Origin: Methanomassiliicoccaceae archaeon UBA367
Lineage (GTDB): Archaea > Thermoplasmatota > Thermoplasmata > Methanomassiliicoccales > Methanomethylophilaceae
Length of the DNA: 8,996 bases
Reading direction: 5' to 3'
Assembly (NCBI GenBank): GCA_002506255.1
Contig: DAXF01000046.1
Location: 9,120 to 18,115 of the forward strand
Below the pieces are notes generated by a model. The model ran no database searches, had not been told where the DNA came from, and saw only the letters and a list, made by a program, of their open reading frames with translations. The position numbers and the translations under genes were made by a program. Shown one piece after another: positions 1 through 7,215 of this stretch; position 1 is the stretch's first letter, and each line of letters starts with the position of its first letter.

Positions 1-120
1 CTGGAAGGCGCCCTGTCCCATGTGGACAGGGTCATGGAGATACCCCGGAAGATGTGGATTGCCAATTCCGGCGTCCTCAGGGACTTCCTGACGCAAAGGA
101 GGATCGAAGACTATCTCTAA
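1..120 (+). CDS. 3' end of an unidentified protein (partial)
   Basis: Frame 1 is open from the first base and ends at TAA 118-120, giving the last 39 residues of a protein whose beginning lies outside the window. The tail is amphipathic, rich in Arg, Asp and Glu, and ends in ...RRIEDYL. I do not recognise the family from this fragment, and no catalytic motif is visible. It lies on the same strand as the radical SAM gene 40 bases downstream, so the two could be co-transcribed. That it is coding is supported by the uninterrupted frame up to a stop and by the neighbouring gene arrangement, but the fragment is short. Confidence 0.5.
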   Translation: MEGALSHVDRVMEIPRKMWIANSGVLRDFLTQRRIEDYL

Positions 121-160: not shown

Positions 161-883
161 GTGGAATGCAGGCGAGCTCTTTCCCCATCGAAGCTCCCGG
201 ATATGGATTACGCTCTCAATCCGTACTCGGGTTGCGCTCACGGATGCGTGTATTGCTACGCGCCTGAGGTAACCCATGCAGAATGGGCGGGGTGGAGGAT
301 ACCGAAGGCCAAGATGAACATAGCCAGACGTTTATGCTTGGAGTTGCCGAATGTCAAAGGGATAATAGGTATAGGGACGGTCACGGACCCCTATCAGCCC
401 GTGGAGTCCGAGCTGGAATTGACTCTTCAATGCCTCAGGGCGCTGAAGGAGCGGGATTTCAGAATACACATGCATACGAAATCGAATCTGATACTCAGAG
501 ATATCGACCTCCTCTCGGAGATGGAGGGCACTGTCGGCATCACCGTTACCGGGATCGAGGAACGGGAATCTAAGATGACAGAGCCGGGGGCTCCGATGCC
601 GTCGAGAAGATTGGAGGCGATAAGCAAGCTTGCAGACGTTGGAATAAACGTCTATGCGCTTGTGGGGCCGGTCCTCAGTCATTTAGAGGGGAGAGAGAGC
701 GCTCTTGTCGACGCGATTGCGAGAACCGGCGTAAAACTGATCTATATCGACTCATTGAATTCAAGGCCGCTGCTCTCAGAGAGGCTCGCACGTATGAGAT
801 TCAGGGGTTCTCCGTCTGCCGAGAGACGAATAAAGGAGTTGTCAGAGGCTGCCGGGGTTGAGGTCCGTCCCGTCTTTCGCTGA
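161..883 (+). CDS. Radical SAM protein, SplB-like (COG1533) family
   Basis: This is a radical S-adenosylmethionine enzyme. The cluster motif CAHGCVYC (Cys25, Cys29, Cys32 counted from GTG 161) follows the NPYSGC lead-in typical of the spore-photoproduct-lyase-like COG1533 group and would bind a [4Fe-4S] cluster that cleaves SAM. Further family blocks are GTVTDPYQPVE (about 72-82), TKSNLILRDIDLL (about 106-118), GITVTG (about 126-131) and EPGAPMPSRRLEAI (about 141-154). The substrate is unknown: archaeal members are mostly uncharacterised, and the similarity does not show DNA photoproduct repair. The start is uncertain. GTG 161 is the only ATG/GTG/TTG in frame after the stop at 89-91, but it has no well-spaced ribosome binding site, and conserved-looking sequence (TYEAVE) already begins upstream of it. 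A strong AAAGGAGG lies at 95-102. At 240 residues the protein is a little short for the family, so the true N-terminus may lie upstream at a non-standard codon. Confidence 0.88.
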   Translation: MECRRALSPSKLPDMDYALNPYSGCAHGCVYCYAPEVTHAEWAGWRIPKAKMNIARRLCLELPNVKGIIGIGTVTDPYQPVESELELTLQCLRALKERDFRIHMHTKSNLILRDIDLLSEMEGTVGITVTGIEERESKMTEPGAPMPSRRLEAISKLADVGINVYALVGPVLSHLEGRESALVDAIARTGVKLIYIDSLNSRPLLSERLARMRFRGSPSAERRIKELSEAAGVEVRPVFR

Positions 884-1503: not shown

Positions 1504-2535
1504 TCAGCGCCGGAAGGCGTGAGCTGTAGATGTCATAAGTGACAGATTATCTATCGGGAATCCTCTGTGCAGGGAACAGGAACAGGACATGATGTACGCT
1601 CGGTCTTGAAAATCTTCGAGGAATCCTGTAGTGTCCGATACGATCTCCTCGCGCGTTCCGTTTAGCAGAGTGGTCATGACATCAGGTCCGCCCATCAATG
1701 AGCATTTTTCACCTATCCTATCGATGATCGAGGGGCCATCGTTCTCTTCTGAGAACTGGAAGCAATCTATGCCCGCACCCACAGTTGCATCAAGGATATC
1801 CGAAGAGCCCCCATCGAACTTACCGTGAGGATGGAACACAGACGGCATTCCCATGTCCTTGGCGGCGGAGCATATCCTCTTCAGGGCAGGGATGCAGTAT
1901 TCCGTGTACATGCCGTCCCCCAGGAGGTCTGGATTATCCGTTGCGGATGCCAGGAAAAGAGCGTCTGCCAGGTCAGCACCTATGTAGTCCATTGCGGATA
2001 TTATCGTCTCTACAGAGAAATCCATGACTCGATGGGCGGTATCAGGATCGGATATCATGTCCATCAGGAGGGTCTCCATGTTCCTGAGATTCCCGCCATT
2101 GGTGACCGGGCCTGCAAGATTCATTACAACGGCCAGATCGCTTCTTTTGCTGCGAACCATCCTGTATGATTCCCTCATTCCGGAAAGCATACTGTCCCTT
2201 ACCGAATCCGGCGATGCGGAATCCAATAACGAAATGTTCCTGAAAGGCGCATCTTTCGGATACGGTACGCCTTTGTCTGGTATTCCCAGCTCAACACCGA
2301 ATCCCGTGACCATGCAGCCGAATATGCATCCTACAACAGCATCATGACCCACGATTTCCTGAAGTGCCAGTATTCCTGCTGCGGAAGCACGGGGATCATA
2401 GGGCGGGCCGAACACCTCCGTCGTGGCCGCTCCGGTGATGTCCAGTCCCAGGGTCAGGTCCCGGGGGAAGACAGGTACTTCCGCCGAAATGCCACCTTTC
2501 ACAGCTTCCAGGAACAGATCTCTGGGCATTCTCAT
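1504..2535 (-). CDS. UroD-fold MtaA/MtbA-like methyltransferase with variant metal site (paralogue 1)
   Basis: The 343-residue protein has the uroporphyrinogen-decarboxylase TIM-barrel pattern of the methylcobamide:coenzyme M methyltransferase group (MtaA/MtbA/CmuA-like). Those zinc enzymes move a methyl group from a corrinoid protein to the thiol of coenzyme M. Family-type blocks are GPVTNGGNLRNMETLLMD (about 142-159), YIGADLADALFLA (184-196), FHPHG (234-238) and SCSCSLHRGFPIDNL (317-331). The usual HxC zinc motif reads His235-Pro-His237, and the C-terminal ligand position carries Cys318-Ser-Cys320; Cys320 aligns by spacing to the conserved Asn/Leu with the known zinc Cys. It is clearly paralogous to the gene at 6157-7215. 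True HemE is unlikely because its N-terminal substrate motif is absent. ATG 2535 is the furthest upstream usable start, since an in-frame TGA lies 8 codons earlier; ATG 2529 is also possible. Neither has a clear ribosome binding site. The reaction is inferred only at family level. Confidence 0.83.
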   Translation of the reverse strand: MRMPRDLFLEAVKGGISAEVPVFPRDLTLGLDITGAATTEVFGPPYDPRASAAGILALQEIVGHDAVVGCIFGCMVTGFGVELGIPDKGVPYPKDAPFRNISLLDSASPDSVRDSMLSGMRESYRMVRSKRSDLAVVMNLAGPVTNGGNLRNMETLLMDMISDPDTAHRVMDFSVETIISAMDYIGADLADALFLASATDNPDLLGDGMYTEYCIPALKRICSAAKDMGMPSVFHPHGKFDGGSSDILDATVGAGIDCFQFSEENDGPSIIDRIGEKCSLMGGPDVMTTLLNGTREEIVSDTTGFLEDFQDRAYIMSCSCSLHRGFPIDNLSLMTSTAHAFRR

Positions 2536-2588
2536 GGATAGCAGATTGGGGAGGAAGTATCAATGCCTTCTGGTTTATGCGGAGACAT
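2536..2588 (-). other. Possible 18-codon upstream reading frame before UroD-like paralogue 1
   Basis: On the minus strand an ATG at 2588 opens an 18-codon frame (MSPHKPEGIDTSSPICYP) whose TGA (2534-2532) overlaps the ATG of the UroD-like gene in an ATGA arrangement. Such an overlap would couple translation and could make up for the missing ribosome binding site of the main gene. The frame has no convincing ribosome binding site of its own and no recognisable homology, and a frame this short can arise by chance. Confidence 0.2.
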
Positions 2589-2610
2589 AATCAAATCCGT
2601 GTACTGATTC

Positions 2611-2624
2611 CGGGAGTACTCCCG
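2611..2624. promoter_or_regulatory. Perfect 14-base palindrome, candidate operator
   Basis: CGGGAGTACTCCCG is its own reverse complement. It lies in the 188-base gap between the binding-protein gene and UroD-like paralogue 1, 76 bases upstream of the latter's ATG. A dimeric regulator could bind it. As RNA it would give only a 5-base-pair stem with a GTAC loop, and on the minus strand it is not followed by a U run, so it does not look like a terminator of the transporter operon. I saw no second copy in the window. Confidence 0.4.
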
Positions 2625-2723
2625 CCCTCTCTTTCGCTGTCTGCGGTCCCAGGTTCCCTTTATTAGTATTCGTCATCCTGTTTATTGAGATCTGATTCTG
2701 GAGACAAGGCGTTTCACAGGCCG

Positions 2724-3815
2724 TCATACAAGTGTCCCGGTTTCAGGATCGTATGTGTACGGTTCATCCCCATACATCGCCTCCAGGAAGGAATAATCAA
2801 TACGTCCCGTGGGGTCGAAATCCTCATCCAGCAGGTTGGCTTTTCTGATCAGGAAATCTTCGATATTCCTCATCATGCAAACGTCCCAGTATTGGGAGTT
2901 GAAGAAGTTCTCCTGACTGTCGGCAGTCCATCCGCTTAGGTTGTAAAACTCTGCACAATATTCTGACACGCCTCTCCTTGTCTCGGAGTTCTCTATGTCG
3001 GCGCAGGCTCTGTCGAAGGCCTTCATGACCTTCAGTATCTTATCCTGTTTTTCTTCAAGGACCTTTTCCGAAGAGATCAAAACGCAGGCGCCCACAGGGT
3101 CTCCGTAAGGCGAGGATAGGATCGTGACACTTTCTCCGCCTCTTTCCTTAGCAATGTTCAATGCGTTCCCGGAACACAGCATCTGCACACTACCATTCAA
3201 AAGGGCTGTGGCTTGATTGTCAAACTGGATATGCACGATGCCGCCGTCTTTATCCGATGTTTTAACGGATCTCAGCAGGTTGTACTCCTCTTCCGTTAGC
3301 TTGCCGTGCTCCTTCGCCTCATAAAGATAGCCCCGATATCCTCCGAAATATCCTGTTGTGATGTCCAAGCCGGTGTGCACTTTGATGGTGCCGTCCTCAT
3401 TCAGCAGCGTCCCTCTGGGGTTATTCAGATCTATCCCGTATTCTGTCAAAGCAGCAAAATCGTATGCAGTGGAGTTCTTATTGACGGAGATGGAACCGAT
3501 GATCCTGCCGTCTTCGGTCTCGTTTATGAACCTCACTGCAGGATCTGCGCCTACCAGCGTTATGTCCGCTCTGCCGGCCATTAAGGCTGTGGTAGCGCTT
3601 CCGCCGCCGTCCACATAGAGCATCTTGACGGTAACACCCTGCTCTTCGAAGTATCCGTAATGGTCGGCGATCCAGAACGGCTCGTAGTAGTTCTTCGTAC
3701 CGCAGGCAATGGTGATGTCCGCATTCGTCTCGTCTTCTCCCAGGAGGTACACTCCTCCTGCTGTTATCATTATCATAACTGCGACGGCGGCCAGTATTTT
3801 GGTCTTCGTATCCAT
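2724..3815 (-). CDS. ABC transporter substrate-binding protein, nitrate/taurine/sulfonate (SsuA/NMT1-like) family
   Basis: This is the extracytoplasmic ligand-binding component of the importer encoded just upstream. An N-terminal hydrophobic segment (residues about 7-25, after MDTKTK) would export it and may stay as a membrane anchor; there is no lipobox Cys. The mature part begins ITIACGTKNYYEPFWIADHYGYFEEQG (here in pieces: ITIACGTKNYY at 34-44, then WIADHYGYFEEQG at 48-60), the classic start of the SsuA/TauA/NMT1 fold, followed by GGGSATTALMAGRADI (70-85). Family members bind nitrate, sulfonates, taurine or pyrimidine precursors, and the ligand here cannot be read off. ATG 3815 is chosen over the in-frame ATG 3833: AGGAG (3823-3827) lies 7 bases before it, and the earlier ATG falls inside the ATPase gene. 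The gap to the ATPase stop is 4 bases, so the genes are probably translationally coupled. Length is 363 residues. Confidence 0.9.
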   Translation of the reverse strand: MDTKTKILAAVAVMIMITAGGVYLLGEDETNADITIACGTKNYYEPFWIADHYGYFEEQGVTVKMLYVDGGGSATTALMAGRADITLVGADPAVRFINETEDGRIIGSISVNKNSTAYDFAALTEYGIDLNNPRGTLLNEDGTIKVHTGLDITTGYFGGYRGYLYEAKEHGKLTEEEYNLLRSVKTSDKDGGIVHIQFDNQATALLNGSVQMLCSGNALNIAKERGGESVTILSSPYGDPVGACVLISSEKVLEEKQDKILKVMKAFDRACADIENSETRRGVSEYCAEFYNLSGWTADSQENFFNSQYWDVCMMRNIEDFLIRKANLLDEDFDPTGRIDYSFLEAMYGDEPYTYDPETGTLV

Positions 3816-3819
3816 CCTC

Positions 3820-4608
3820 TCACTCCTGCACATTAATGGAAATGGGCGTTTTTGCGCAGGCGCAGACGCCCAGATTCCTGATGATATCCTTTTTAAGCAT
3901 AGTTATCTGATCCGAGCTCAAGTTCTCTTTATCGACGGGCAGATGCCATTCTTTGAACACCTGTCCGGGCGATGGCGTCAGGAGAACTATCCTGGTGGCC
4001 AGGAGCAGAGCCTCCTCTACGCTGTGCGTTACCAGTACGACGGTCCTCTTCTCCTCTTTCCATATGTCGAGGATCTCCTTGTCCAGGTGCTTCCTTGTCT
4101 GCTCATCCAGGCTGGAGAAGGGCTCATCCATGAGAAGGATGTCGGGTTGCATCGCGAACGCTCTGGCAATGGCCACTCTCTGTCTCATTCCACCGGAGAG
4201 AAGGTTGGGCTTGCTGTTCTCGAAACCTGTCAGATTAACCTTTGCGATGTACTTGGAAGCGATCTCCTCTCTTTCTTTGGAGGAGTACTTCTTCCGGTCC
4301 AGAGAGAACTCCACGTTCTTCTGCACATCCATCCAGGGCAATAGGCTGTATTCCTGGAATATCACCGCTCTCTCGGGGCCGGGACCGCGTATCTTCTGAC
4401 CGCGATAGGATATCTCTCCTTTGATGGGCTTCTCGAAACCTGCGATCATATCCAGCAAAGTGGTCTTCCCGCAACCTGAAGGCCCTATAATGCATACGAA
4501 TTCATTCTCACTTATGGAGAGGTTGATATCCTTGAGAACAACGCGTCCTTCATTCAGTTTGGGCTCATAATATGCTTTGTAGACGCCTTTGATATCGATA
4601 ACGCTCAT
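3820..4608 (-). CDS. ABC transporter ATP-binding protein, SsuB/TauB/NrtD type
   Basis: This 262-residue nucleotide-binding subunit powers the importer. All ABC motifs are present: Walker A GPSGCGKT (42-49), Q-loop Gln85 in FQEYSLLPW, signature LSGGMRQR (137-144), Walker B ILLMDE (157-162), D-loop SSLD (165-168) and H-loop His195 (VTHS). The Q-loop context and the GMRQR form of the signature are typical of the nitrate/sulfonate/taurine subfamily. The C-terminal tail contains a CAC pair (in LGVCACAK) of unknown meaning. ATG 4608 is chosen because GGAGG (4615-4619) precedes it by 6 bases; a longer in-frame start at 4650 would lie inside the permease gene and adds non-conserved residues. It begins one base after the permease stop and is followed after 4 bases by the binding-protein gene, which indicates one operon. 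Confidence 0.95.
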   Translation of the reverse strand: MSVIDIKGVYKAYYEPKLNEGRVVLKDINLSISENEFVCIIGPSGCGKTTLLDMIAGFEKPIKGEISYRGQKIRGPGPERAVIFQEYSLLPWMDVQKNVEFSLDRKKYSSKEREEIASKYIAKVNLTGFENSKPNLLSGGMRQRVAIARAFAMQPDILLMDEPFSSLDEQTRKHLDKEILDIWKEEKRTVVLVTHSVEEALLLATRIVLLTPSPGQVFKEWHLPVDKENLSSDQITMLKKDIIRNLGVCACAKTPISINVQE

Positions 4609-4609
4609 G

Positions 4610-5497
4610 TCATTCCTCCATTCCGAGCTTTGAGCGCACGTAGTTCTCAAGGGCTTCCAGAACCACTTTGTCTATTATCAGGCCGATGATGCATATGATC
4701 ACGATGCATGCGAAAGCCGAAGCATAGTCGATGTAGCCGGTGGTTATCTGTATCGCGAATCCTAGTCCGAGTGCGACGCCTACGACCATCTCTGCGGATA
4801 TCAGCATCCTCCACCCGTTCGCTATCCCTATCCTGAGCCCGGAAAGGATGTCAAGGGCGGCGAAGGGTATCAGGACCTCGGCGAATGTGTCAGATCTGCT
4901 TCTCCCGGACATCCTGGCGACCCTCAGGTTAACCTTCGGCACTTTGCGAAGTCCGTTGGCGGTGTTTATGGCGATAGGGGATATCACAGTTATCGCGATG
5001 ATGAATATGGCTGAGTTCTCATTCAGTCCGAAAAGCAGAATGGTGACGGGATACCAGGCGAGCCCGGGTATCAGTTGCAGGATGTTCACGGGAACCATCC
5101 CGAATTCATGTATCCTGTTGTTACTGCCCATGATAAGTCCCATGGAAAGGCCTATTGCGGCAGCTATCGAGAACCCTTTGATCCACCTTCCGAGACTGGC
5201 CTTAGTGTGATTAATTATGCTCTGCCCGAAGATCTTGTAATCCGTTGCGAAGAACTCCCCCAGACGTTCGAAGGTTTCTACAGGTCTGGGGAAGGATATC
5301 ATGTCAGCCATGTATGTGTTGTAAAATTGTGCAACGATGTACCATATGAGTATGACAAAAGCTAAACCGCAGAGGAAGACACCTATCCTGTAGAAGAGTC
5401 TCTTCAATCTTCTGTCTCCTAGATACAATCTGTTGCCGTCTGTTTCATTCAGACGGCCTTCCATCTCTTGCTCGACGGATGTGAATAATCTGAGCAT
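4610..5497 (-). CDS. ABC transporter permease, SsuC/TauC/NrtB type
   Basis: This integral membrane subunit (295 residues) forms the translocation path. It has about six hydrophobic segments (roughly 36-56, 107-124, 133-156, 162-180, 228-250, 258-277) and the SsuC-type periplasmic stretch SFPRPVETFERLGEFF (68-83). The cytoplasmic coupling loop ARMSGRSRSDTFAEVLIPFA (194-213), followed by SGLRIGIANGW, is the EAA-type site that docks the ATPase. ATG 5497 is preferred: it lies about 27 bases from the centre of a strong TATA box, which suggests a leaderless transcript starting at or next to this codon. TTG at 5500 and ATG at 5464 are in-frame alternatives without good ribosome binding sites. It is the first gene of a permease-ATPase-binding protein operon, which is not the order seen in many bacterial ssu/tau operons. 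Confidence 0.93.
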   Translation of the reverse strand: MLRLFTSVEQEMEGRLNETDGNRLYLGDRRLKRLFYRIGVFLCGLAFVILIWYIVAQFYNTYMADMISFPRPVETFERLGEFFATDYKIFGQSIINHTKASLGRWIKGFSIAAAIGLSMGLIMGSNNRIHEFGMVPVNILQLIPGLAWYPVTILLFGLNENSAIFIIAITVISPIAINTANGLRKVPKVNLRVARMSGRSRSDTFAEVLIPFAALDILSGLRIGIANGWRMLISAEMVVGVALGLGFAIQITTGYIDYASAFACIVIICIIGLIIDKVVLEALENYVRSKLGMEE

Positions 5498-5517
5498 CAA
5501 ATCTTCATAAGTTTTGG

Positions 5518-5533
5518 TTTATATTTAAATTTA
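5518..5533 (-). promoter_or_regulatory. Archaeal TATA-box promoter for the ABC transporter operon
   Basis: The minus strand reads TAAATTTAAATATAAA here, a strong archaeal TATA element in a 66-base gap that is otherwise A/T rich. Its centre is about 27 bases upstream of the permease ATG at 5497, the usual distance from TATA box to transcription start. The mRNA is therefore predicted to be leaderless, which agrees with the lack of a ribosome binding site. The transporter can thus be transcribed separately from the upstream UroD-like/P-loop pair. Confidence 0.7.
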
Positions 5534-5563
5534 CTTTTTGATTTTTTACTAAAACAATATCGG

Positions 5564-6160
5564 TCAGATCATATACAGAGCTCTGGCGCATACTTTCCTG
5601 GAGAATATCACTGAACGAATTTCTTCGACCGATTCACCGGTTTCGGAGGAAAAGAAGAATATCTCCGCATCGGGATTGATGCGGTGCACGATATTCGATG
5701 CGCAAACCCTGTCGACATTCTCAGCAACCGATATCGCGACTATATCAGACTCATATATCTGCTGTCTGATTTTCAATTCCTCCGAGGTGTCAGATTCCAA
5801 ACCTTTCTTCAAAACACCGCTTCTCACTACCGTTATAAGTGGGCCGATCTCGAACCTGCCATTGCTGAATGCGATGGCCTGTGTGAGTATGCGGGAAGAT
5901 GTCTCTGTACATATGCCGGGAGGTTCCGCTATAAGCGTATCCACGCCCCATTCGCTGTGAACTTTCTCGATCCAATGTAAGAACTGACGAGGTCTGGCAC
6001 ACGGGCTTCTAAGGGGGAAATAGGCTTTCCTTACATTATCTGGTATCAAGCTCAGAGACTCTGGGTTATTGAAAATCACGCCCGTATCGGGCGTGGCGAT
6101 TCTCGATATAAGGGTTGTTTTCCCTGAACCGGGGAATCCGGCGATCATCACCACTCTCAT
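5564..6160 (-). CDS. CobW/HypB-like P-loop nucleotide-binding protein with degenerate specificity motif
   Basis: The 198-residue protein starts with a Walker A motif GFPGSGKT (8-15). It continues like the G-domain of COG0523/CobW, HypB and UreG, SIMIBI NTPases that deliver metals or activate metalloenzymes. LIAEPPG (76-82) corresponds to their Walker B/switch region, and RQQIYESDIVAI (about 131-142) corresponds to the family's RQ...AD block. Two hallmarks are missing: there is no CxCC metal motif (only SPC54 in the equivalent region), and where NKxD would read out guanine the sequence is SVAENVD. No C-terminal CobW domain is present. ATG 6160 overlaps the TGA of the UroD-like gene (ATGA), and GGAGG (6167-6171) lies 6 bases before it, so the two are translationally coupled. 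I infer a maturation or metal-loading role for the UroD-like enzymes; nucleotide and metal specificity are unknown. Confidence 0.8.
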   Translation of the reverse strand: MRVVMIAGFPGSGKTTLISRIATPDTGVIFNNPESLSLIPDNVRKAYFPLRSPCARPRQFLHWIEKVHSEWGVDTLIAEPPGICTETSSRILTQAIAFSNGRFEIGPLITVVRSGVLKKGLESDTSEELKIRQQIYESDIVAISVAENVDRVCASNIVHRINPDAEIFFFSSETGESVEEIRSVIFSRKVCARALYMI

Positions 6161-7215
6161 GCGTGCCCTCCGCAGTATGATCGGGTGGCATCAGCCATCG
6201 TCTTGATGTTCTTGATCGGAACTCCTCTGTTAAGGGAGCAGGAGCAGGTCATTATGTAATCCTCTCCGAACAAAGAATCCAGAAGCGATCCCACGGACCT
6301 GATTATCCTCTCCTCGGGGCCGAGAAGAAGAACGTTGAATGCGTCCAGCCCTCCGAGCACGCAGCATCTTCCGGAAGTCTCCCGCAGTATCCCTGAAGGC
6401 GTGTTGTCCTCTGCGAACTGGAATCCGTCCACGCCTGTGTCCAGGGATGCCCTCAGCACCTCTTTTCGATCTTCGGTGCTGAATAGTCCGTGGGGGTGGA
6501 ATATTGCCGGAAGCCCCATGTCATGACAGAAATTCGTAACATTCCTTACGCTAGGAAGGCTGATCTTCATGAATTCCTCAAGACCCAGCATGTCTGGGTT
6601 GTCTGATGCGGCTGCAATGAACACTGCATCAGCACAATCCGCTCCTATGTACTCTATCGTGGATCTCATCACACCTTCGGAGAATCTCACAAGCCCGGAG
6701 ACAAGGTCCGGATTGAGGATTATGTCCATCATGAGAGTCTCAAGTCCTCTCAGGTTGCCCGCGGTGTTCACGGGACCGCTTATATTCATGATCTCTGCAA
6801 GGTGTGGTGCTCTTCTTCGAACAATTCGATAGGATTCGCGCATTCCCTCAAGGAGTTCGTTGCAGATGTCTTCTGGCACATATGCTTCCATCTTTTCTAT
6901 TTCTGCGAAGGGGGGATCCGATAGATAGGGTATCCCGTTCGCAGGATAAACCGTGGTACCGCCGAAGGCTTCCATACTGTATGTGTGAATGCACCCGATC
7001 ACGGCATCGTGCCCTATGAGCTTCTGCATTTCCAAGACACAGGCTGCAGAAAGTTTAGAATCATATACCGGACCGAACACAGCGTCGGTATCGATGTTCA
7101 AGGCATCCAGTCCGAGAGTCAGGTCCCTCAGGAAAATGGGTATATCCTTTGACGGGCTACCGGAAAGCACAGAAAGGAAGAGCTCTCGCCGGTCGGGATC
7201 TTCTCCTGGACTCAT
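6157..7215 (-). CDS. UroD-fold MtaA/MtbA-like methyltransferase with variant metal site (paralogue 2)
   Basis: The 352-residue paralogue of the product of 1504-2535 shares the blocks RDLTLGLD (30-37), IGHDAVIGC (67-75), SGPVNTAGNLRGLETLMMD (about 146-164), YIGADCADAVFIAA (189-202), FHPHG (239-243) and CSCSLNRGVPIKN (324-336). As in the other copy, the metal site expected from MtaA/MtbA (HxC plus one distal Cys) reads His240-Pro-His242 plus Cys324-Ser-Cys326. The fold and family suggest a metal-activated thiol or methyl-group transfer; the actual substrate is unknown. ATG 7215 has no ribosome binding site but lies about 25 bases from a TATA-like ATTTAATA, so a leaderless start is likely. It forms a two-gene unit with the P-loop protein through an ATGA overlap. 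No corrinoid protein or methylamine/methanol methyltransferase gene is adjacent. Confidence 0.83.
   Translation of the reverse strand: MSPGEDPDRRELFLSVLSGSPSKDIPIFLRDLTLGLDALNIDTDAVFGPVYDSKLSAACVLEMQKLIGHDAVIGCIHTYSMEAFGGTTVYPANGIPYLSDPPFAEIEKMEAYVPEDICNELLEGMRESYRIVRRRAPHLAEIMNISGPVNTAGNLRGLETLMMDIILNPDLVSGLVRFSEGVMRSTIEYIGADCADAVFIAAASDNPDMLGLEEFMKISLPSVRNVTNFCHDMGLPAIFHPHGLFSTEDRKEVLRASLDTGVDGFQFAEDNTPSGILRETSGRCCVLGGLDAFNVLLLGPEERIIRSVGSLLDSLFGEDYIMTCSCSLNRGVPIKNIKTMADATRSYCGGHA

Follow-up and report, generated by a model that had tools for sequence, protein, structure and literature searches.

The window analysed here is an 8,996-nucleotide stretch of contig DAXF01000046.1 from Methanomassiliicoccaceae archaeon UBA367, and its central feature is an operon of six consecutive minus-strand genes (window 1504-7215). 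In reading order these encode UroD1, a CobW-like protein, an ATP-binding cassette (ABC) permease, an ABC ATPase, a substrate-binding protein, and UroD2. We propose that the operon is an uptake-and-group-transfer module for a small ligand of the TauA/SsuA type, probably an organosulfur compound other than coenzyme M (CoM), and we assign this reading a probability of about 0.35. The operon combines known parts in a new way, joining a sulfonate-class importer to a branch of the MtaA fold with a changed metal site. No description of it turned up in a literature search, mostly judged from search listings, which agrees with the suggestion of an earlier note on this DNA that the system is undescribed.

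The presence and placement of the six genes, as the earlier note had described them, were confirmed by the open reading frames (ORFs) and by a Pfam match for each product (Table 1). The ATG of the CobW-like gene overlaps the UroD1 stop codon (4 bp). The true starts of the permease, ATPase, and binding-protein genes probably lie slightly downstream of the listed ORF starts: the probable ATPase start is the ATG at 4608, directly after the permease stop, and for the binding protein the database copy is 363 residues long, a form that begins at 3815. The arrangement is not due to chance, because synteny is kept in related genomes.

Conservation was surveyed in 147 genomes of the order Methanomassiliicoccales; completeness figures were absent for these genomes, whose apparent absences may be gaps, and the Fisher tests treat genomes as independent, uncorrected for kinship. 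The short CobW gene was found in 11 of the 147 genomes (E ≤ 1.5e-51, clearly separated from a longer paralogue at 2e-31), and UroD1 lay directly upstream of it in all 11, although its frame is split in locus L004. The UroD family occurred in 42 genomes (E 1e-40) and the permease class of the window in 41 (E ≤ 3e-80; 21 more matched only at 2.5e-48 or weaker). Importer and UroD genes co-occurred in 36 genomes, while 6 carried only UroD and 5 only the importer (Fisher p = 1.1e-22); in 24 of the 36, the two lay no more than 2.5 kb apart. The linkage is strong, not absolute. Neighbourhood linkage of close homologues, the check that had been put forward for the system, thus held in the main, and synteny together with co-occurrence bears out the six genes as a conserved unit. 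A draw of 389 genomes from the phylum gave 17 matched genomes, all of them already seen in the order.

The AlphaFold2 model of UroD1 has a mean predicted local distance difference test score (pLDDT) of 95.2, and its closest solved structure in Foldseek is MtaA of Methanosarcina mazei (4ay7/4ay8; TM 0.80-0.87; 20% identity). The profile of the UroD family aligns HPHG with HICG of MtaA (4ay7), and CSCS falls in the region that holds the C-terminal Cys of that enzyme. The positions of the first His, Cys326, and one Glu are shared with MtaA, and the second metal ligand is His in the UroD pair in place of Cys, so that the zinc motif His-x-Cys...Cys becomes His-x-His...Cys. The predicted metal ligands of UroD1 are His240, His242, and Cys326, with Glu269 conserved nearby; judging from these residues, the bound metal would be zinc. 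A homologue search returned 155 matches, the best 120 of which were listed and aligned. Among the matches listed, His240 and His242 were kept in 121 of 122 aligned homologues (P0130 has QPQG), Cys326 in all 122, and Glu269 in 121, with one gap. HPHG was present in 48/48 full-length UroD ORFs of the loci examined and SCS in 45/48; the other three have CSGS, and one Cys of the CSCS pair was kept in every sequence looked at. In these three (G010, G017, and G114; loci L143, L149, and L156), the Cys aligned to the MtaA ligand is gone and the neighbouring Cys, the first of the pair, is kept.

The zinc ligands of the MtaA/MtbA class, His-x-Cys...Cys, were not found in the UroD pair, and neither protein reached the curated MtaA cut-off of NCBIfam (UroD2 71.1 and UroD1 69.1 vs 400 bits) or that of PRK06252 (at best 90.6 vs 244 bits). 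S-methyltransferases of the superfamily carry a His-Cys-Cys set, and O-methyltransferases replace the cysteines (Kountz and Balskus, PMC10418091); the His-His-Cys set fits both descriptions poorly. The metal motif therefore indicates that the pair are not ordinary MtaA/MtbA enzymes or enzymes of type 1 mlp clusters. The term "MtaA/MtbA-like", used for them in the earlier note, holds for the fold, according to Foldseek and Pfam, and fails for the metal site, in which one ligand has changed.

The CobW-like protein contains the P-loop GFPGSGKT and matches PF02492 at 36.5 bits (cut-off 20.7), which places it in the CobW/G3E family; a 99% match is annotated as Candidatus Methanomethylophilaceae. 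A homologue search gave 28 matches, 25 of which were aligned with the window copy. Cys54 and Cys84 are invariant in this 26-sequence alignment, and CXCC, the metal motif of CobW/G3E GTPases, occurs in none of the 26.

Among the NCBIfam models, the permease matched SaoP (7.7e-38) and TauC (1.6e-33), and the ATPase matched the taurine-type NF008421 (3.3e-72), all under the cut-offs. The binding-protein model (pLDDT 85.0) matched Thi5, TauA, SsuA, and others at similar Foldseek scores; a profile of 15 relatives, compared with the PDB, placed TauA best (8e-19), an exported protein second, and SsuA third. A YEP motif (Y50, E51, P52), which lies beside the EP of TauA, was invariant in 18 close homologues (the search gave 21 matches). 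With a binding protein and a cognate permease and ATPase, the importer belongs to SsuABC/TauABC at the class level, under the subfamily cut-offs. The curated families, Foldseek, and the PDB profile thereby uphold, at that level, its proposed membership of the nitrate/taurine/sulfonate family. The binding-protein profile favours a small sulfonate-like or zwitterionic ligand, without naming one.

Table 1. Genes and gene relic of the operon, in reading order (window positions)
Feature	Position	Strand	Support and remarks
UroD1, UroD/MtaA-fold, 352 aa	6157..7215	-	Pfam URO-D 1.9e-30
CobW/G3E-like P-loop protein, 198 aa	5564..6160	-	Pfam cobW 4.7e-09; 26-sequence alignment
ABC permease, SsuC/TauC/NtrB class	4610..5500	-	Pfam BPD_transp_1 3.6e-15; probable ATG 5497
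ABC ATPase, SsuB/TauB class	3820..4650	-	Pfam ABC_tran 1.9e-34; ORF from TTG 4650
Substrate-binding protein, NMT1/SsuA/TauA fold	2724..3833	-	Pfam NMT1 6.7e-10
Radical SAM gene relic (BioB-like, 3' end), 19 codons, in-frame stop	2563..2619	-	tblastn, nucleotide match
UroD2, UroD/MtaA-fold, 343 aa, same HPHG...CSCS motifs	1504..2535	-	Pfam URO-D 2.4e-34; phmmer to 4ay7 1.7e-09

The 188-bp gap between the binding-protein and UroD2 genes holds the relic of a seventh gene. The nearest relative of the window is RumEn M2, a Methanomassiliicoccales archaeon (locus L004), which is 98.0-100% identical in 250-base blocks outside window 2497-5996. Within this segment, which spans the 3' part of the CobW-like gene to just past the binding-protein gene, the identity falls to 71.6-88.0%; the low-identity importer segment between near-identical flanks suggests an exchange between close relatives. 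L004 has an intact gene at the place of the relic, encoding a BioB-like radical SAM protein of 336 aa (L004:13439-14449), whose three PDB matches are all biotin synthases; the orthologue in L001 matches BioB (2.9e-18) and PylB (4.1e-10). In L002 (UBA381), a stub survives as an open frame of 141 residues that retains radical SAM residues 1-60 and roughly 259-336 and lacks the CX3CX2C motif. The relic in the window is identical at 10 of 19 positions in tblastn, and its nucleotide local score of 91, adjoining flank included, compares with a maximum of 29 in 300 shuffles. The protein-level test alone is weak (score 47 vs a shuffled maximum of 45, reached by 0/500), and the assignment of the relic is based on its position, the nucleotide match, and the L002 stub. 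In L004 itself, the UroD1 gene (8945-10004) and the binding-protein gene (12296-13442) are each split into two overlapping frames, through decay or a draft-assembly error.

Apart from the L002 stub, 8 genomes had BioB-like matches of at least 38% identity (in two pieces in G007, and with one internal stop in G025). A UroD or importer gene lay close to the BioB-like gene in 6 of the 7 genomes examined (G007 outside this set), the exception being G008 (L073); the importer beside the BioB-like gene of G003 is of another type. Cys71, Cys75, and Cys78 of CX3CX2C are the only invariant cysteines among 7 aligned BioB-like proteins; a sulfur-donor cluster like that of BioB is thus not apparent.

The partners of the importer and UroD genes change in other lineages. 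Genes for LipA (lipoyl synthase) and pyruvate dehydrogenase come after UroD in 8 genomes (G010, G132, G134, G138, G140, G143, G146, and G147), with a hydrolase gene in between in G010; these genes were identified by NCBIfam in G010 only, and elsewhere by BLAST to G010. In 8 loci, two genes stand ahead of the permease gene, one of them for methanogenesis marker 2 (families checked in L143 and L140 only). The loci of the two observations are L139, L140, L143, L157, and L160-L163. The importer genes of three genomes (L144, L166, and L167) are accompanied by genes for a different radical SAM protein, an S-adenosylmethionine methyltransferase, and a G3E GTPase; every family assignment here was checked in one or two of these genomes. 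Peroxiredoxin-like genes recur as neighbours in L071, L072, L074, L144, and L153. We count such thiol-linked neighbours (peroxiredoxin-like, BioB-like radical SAM, and lipoyl synthase) in favour of the proposed organosulfur module.

In the mechanism that we propose, the compound imported by the binding protein, permease, and ATPase would be small and is most likely an organosulfur anion or zwitterion, though not CoM. UroD1 and UroD2 would be metalloenzymes in which zinc or a similar metal is held by His240, His242, and Cys326 of CSCS, with Glu269 nearby. They may activate the imported compound or a derivative of it, transferring a methyl or alkyl group onto or off a corrinoid or thiol carrier whose gene lies outside the operon. 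The CobW-like GTPase probably supplies the metal to the two enzymes or protects it there, and the radical SAM step would be an optional add-on, one that the lineage of the window has lost. The genes and their linkage, the predicted fold, the changed metal motif, and the lost radical SAM gene are shown by the data; the metal, the class of ligand, the reaction, the carrier, and the part played by CobW are inferred. A broader form of this proposal is possible, if rather doubtful: a separate branch of the UroD superfamily, marked by the His-x-His...Cys site, may perform a new group transfer on an imported compound with interchangeable partners (CobW-type GTPase, BioB-like or other radical SAM protein, lipoyl synthase and pyruvate dehydrogenase, or peroxiredoxin-like protein), forming an undescribed modular route for the acquisition of sulfur or of organosulfur or organometalloid compounds.

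Several observations weigh against the proposed module. Importer and UroD genes are on different contigs in 12 of the 36 genomes with both, and some UroD genes stand alone in mid-contig (L145 and L147). Among the 11 CobW genomes, the importer shares the locus in 5 (G001, G002, G004, G007, and G008), is on another contig in 4 (G003, G006, G009, and G033), and was not found in 2 (G005 and G036). No B12-binding, corrinoid-activase, or other methyltransferase domain was detected in the eight window ORFs scanned, a set that excludes the thermosome-like ORF. Likewise, 94 of 233 neighbour ORFs gave 109 families, and the 25 commonest of these include no corrinoid protein or activase. The metal site differs from the His-Cys-Cys of S-methyltransferases (PMC10418091), and its motif is not quite invariant, with QPQG in P0130 and CSGS in G010, G114, and G017. 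Finally, the fold and sequence of the binding protein cannot name the ligand.

The earlier note favoured CoM or a relative as the cargo. An importer of CoM or methyl-CoM would serve an auxotroph, and the UroD pair would methylate or demethylate CoM. According to part of a review (PMC10658910), the rumen members ISO4-H5, ISO4-G1, and BRNA1 are without comADE and need CoM, in line with the idea that some host-associated members of the order depend on an external supply, and ssuABC, the class of the window importer, is described there as the CoM transporter of almost all methanogens. The cysteate route has been reported in three genomes (Borrel et al., PMC4153887, seen in part). In our survey, cysteate synthase was matched in 16/147 genomes and missing in 131, ComA was matched in none of the 147, and ComD was found at E ≤ 1e-19 in 34, 16 of them over the curated cut-off. 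Draft gaps aside, this suggests that most Methanomassiliicoccales are CoM-auxotrophic by the known routes. The operon was expected where CoM biosynthesis is absent, but UroD was no commoner there: cysteate synthase occurred in 4/42 UroD-positive and 12/105 UroD-negative genomes (p = 1), ComD in 9/42 and 25/105 (p = 0.83), and 93 of the 131 genomes without cysteate synthase also lacked UroD genes. Moreover, a different SsuC-type permease (L176 type) was found in 136/147 genomes (E ≤ 1e-45), including all 11 with the UroD1-CobW pair and 36 of the 41 with the window importer. On parsimony, the L176-type importer, rather than that of the window, is the candidate CoM importer. Of the 11 genomes that lack a strong L176-type match, 5 carry the window class, against 36 of the 136 with one (no formal test), which counts against the L176 type in this role. 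Taken with a metal site that is not of the CoM-methyltransferase type, these distributions make CoM a very improbable cargo. The near-universal importer, at L176:2465-5426, is adjoined by CobW-like genes in L179 and L180.

Alternatively, the importer and UroD might feed a sulfur-bearing cofactor pathway, supplying a lipoate- or octanoate-like precursor or serving the pyruvate dehydrogenase complex, the partner being LipA or the BioB-like radical SAM protein, depending on the lineage. The gene order UroD, LipA, pyruvate dehydrogenase, seen in 8 genomes, points this way, as does the enrichment of LipA in UroD-positive genomes (18/42 vs 14/105, p = 2.6e-4, uncorrected for kinship), and the binding-protein fold also matches Thi5 and binders of thiamin precursors. 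We nevertheless regard it as unlikely: LipA, present in 32/147 genomes, is often away from the operon (10 of the 18 genomes that carry both) and is missing from 24 of the 42 with UroD, and the BioB-like proteins, with only the CX3CX2C cysteines invariant, have no auxiliary-cluster set. ThiC exceeds its cut-off in 124/147 genomes; a shortage of the thiamin pyrimidine is therefore not general, which weakens thiamin-pyrimidine import, a candidate raised by the THI5-like fold. Methylotrophic catabolism, in which an imported methylated growth substrate would pass its methyl group through UroD and a shared corrinoid protein into methanogenesis, would suit an order that lives by H2-dependent methyl reduction (stated in the part of PMC4153887 consulted) as well as the MtaA fold of the enzymes. 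Its likelihood is low all the same, given that the scanned window ORFs include no dedicated corrinoid protein, substrate methyltransferase, or activator, as the earlier note had stated, that the metal site is altered, and that, in place of methyltransferase modules, the recurrent neighbours are LipA and pyruvate dehydrogenase, radical SAM, and peroxiredoxin-like genes.

Another possibility is a relationship to the Sec-assisted organometallic (SAO) system (Haft and Gwadz 2023, via PMC13188914), with the operon as a cousin that does without selenium and serves the uptake and handling of organometals or organometalloids; the comparison draws on part of that review and on NCBIfam names. SaoP is the best curated family of the permease and SaoA the third of the ATPase, the binding protein has a weak SaoB match (E 0.038), a cousin in L076 matches SaoX (2e-11), and the best curated match of the CobW-like protein is a CobW-related selenoprotein family (1.7e-11). 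However, all the scores are far under the curated cut-offs (130 bits of 295 for the permease, 44 of 180 for CobW), those of SaoP and TauC are close, which makes the likeness generic, and no selenoprotein or MerB-like family was found in the window ORFs scanned. We consider such a kinship quite improbable. Membership of SAO proper is rejected, since the curated cut-offs of SaoA, SaoP, and SaoB were not reached.

Compared with known systems, the proposed organosulfur module shares the fold of MtaA, with no corrinoid partner alongside. Like type 1 mlp clusters (PMC10418091), the operon has more than one MtaA-like paralogue; these clusters are defined by at least two co-transcribed MtaA-like genes with >25% identity to a known enzyme, and the operon has two, UroD1 being about 20% identical to MtaA. 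Type 1 mlp clusters include a corrinoid protein and a Ram/RACE activase, neither of which is among the eight window ORFs scanned, nor is a folate methyltransferase; the operon has His-His-Cys instead of His-Cys-Cys, and an importer and a CobW-like GTPase instead of these partners. With SsuABC/TauABC it shares the three-gene importer and the fold and profile of the binding protein, scoring under the subfamily cut-offs. Those sulfonate and taurine importers are coupled to oxygenases, whereas the operon importer is coupled to UroD-fold enzymes.

Gut Methanomassiliicoccales contribute to the methane released by ruminants and humans, and little is known of the nutrients that they require. Their conserved importer, joined to a new active-site variant of a much-studied methyltransferase fold, suggests that they draw an unrecognised nutrient or metabolite from the surroundings, and both the binding protein and the metal site are open to work with purified proteins, without cultivation of these archaea. 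In addition, neither of the known CoM routes seems to be present in most of the order, and the survey yields a better candidate for the CoM importer.

To the right of the operon, a divergent gene (7360 on), named from its sequence, encodes a thermosome-like protein. To the left, on the plus strand, are a PA0069/Rv2578c-like radical SAM gene and a nitroreductase gene (window 161-883 and 943-1473). Upstream of the same radical SAM/nitroreductase pair, G001 (L074) has a second cluster of importer and radical SAM genes. The open end of a further plus-strand gene occupies window 1-120; it is possibly an archaeal Nre, based on synteny with L074 and L002, and Nre_N was matched in 2 of 94 neighbour ORFs.

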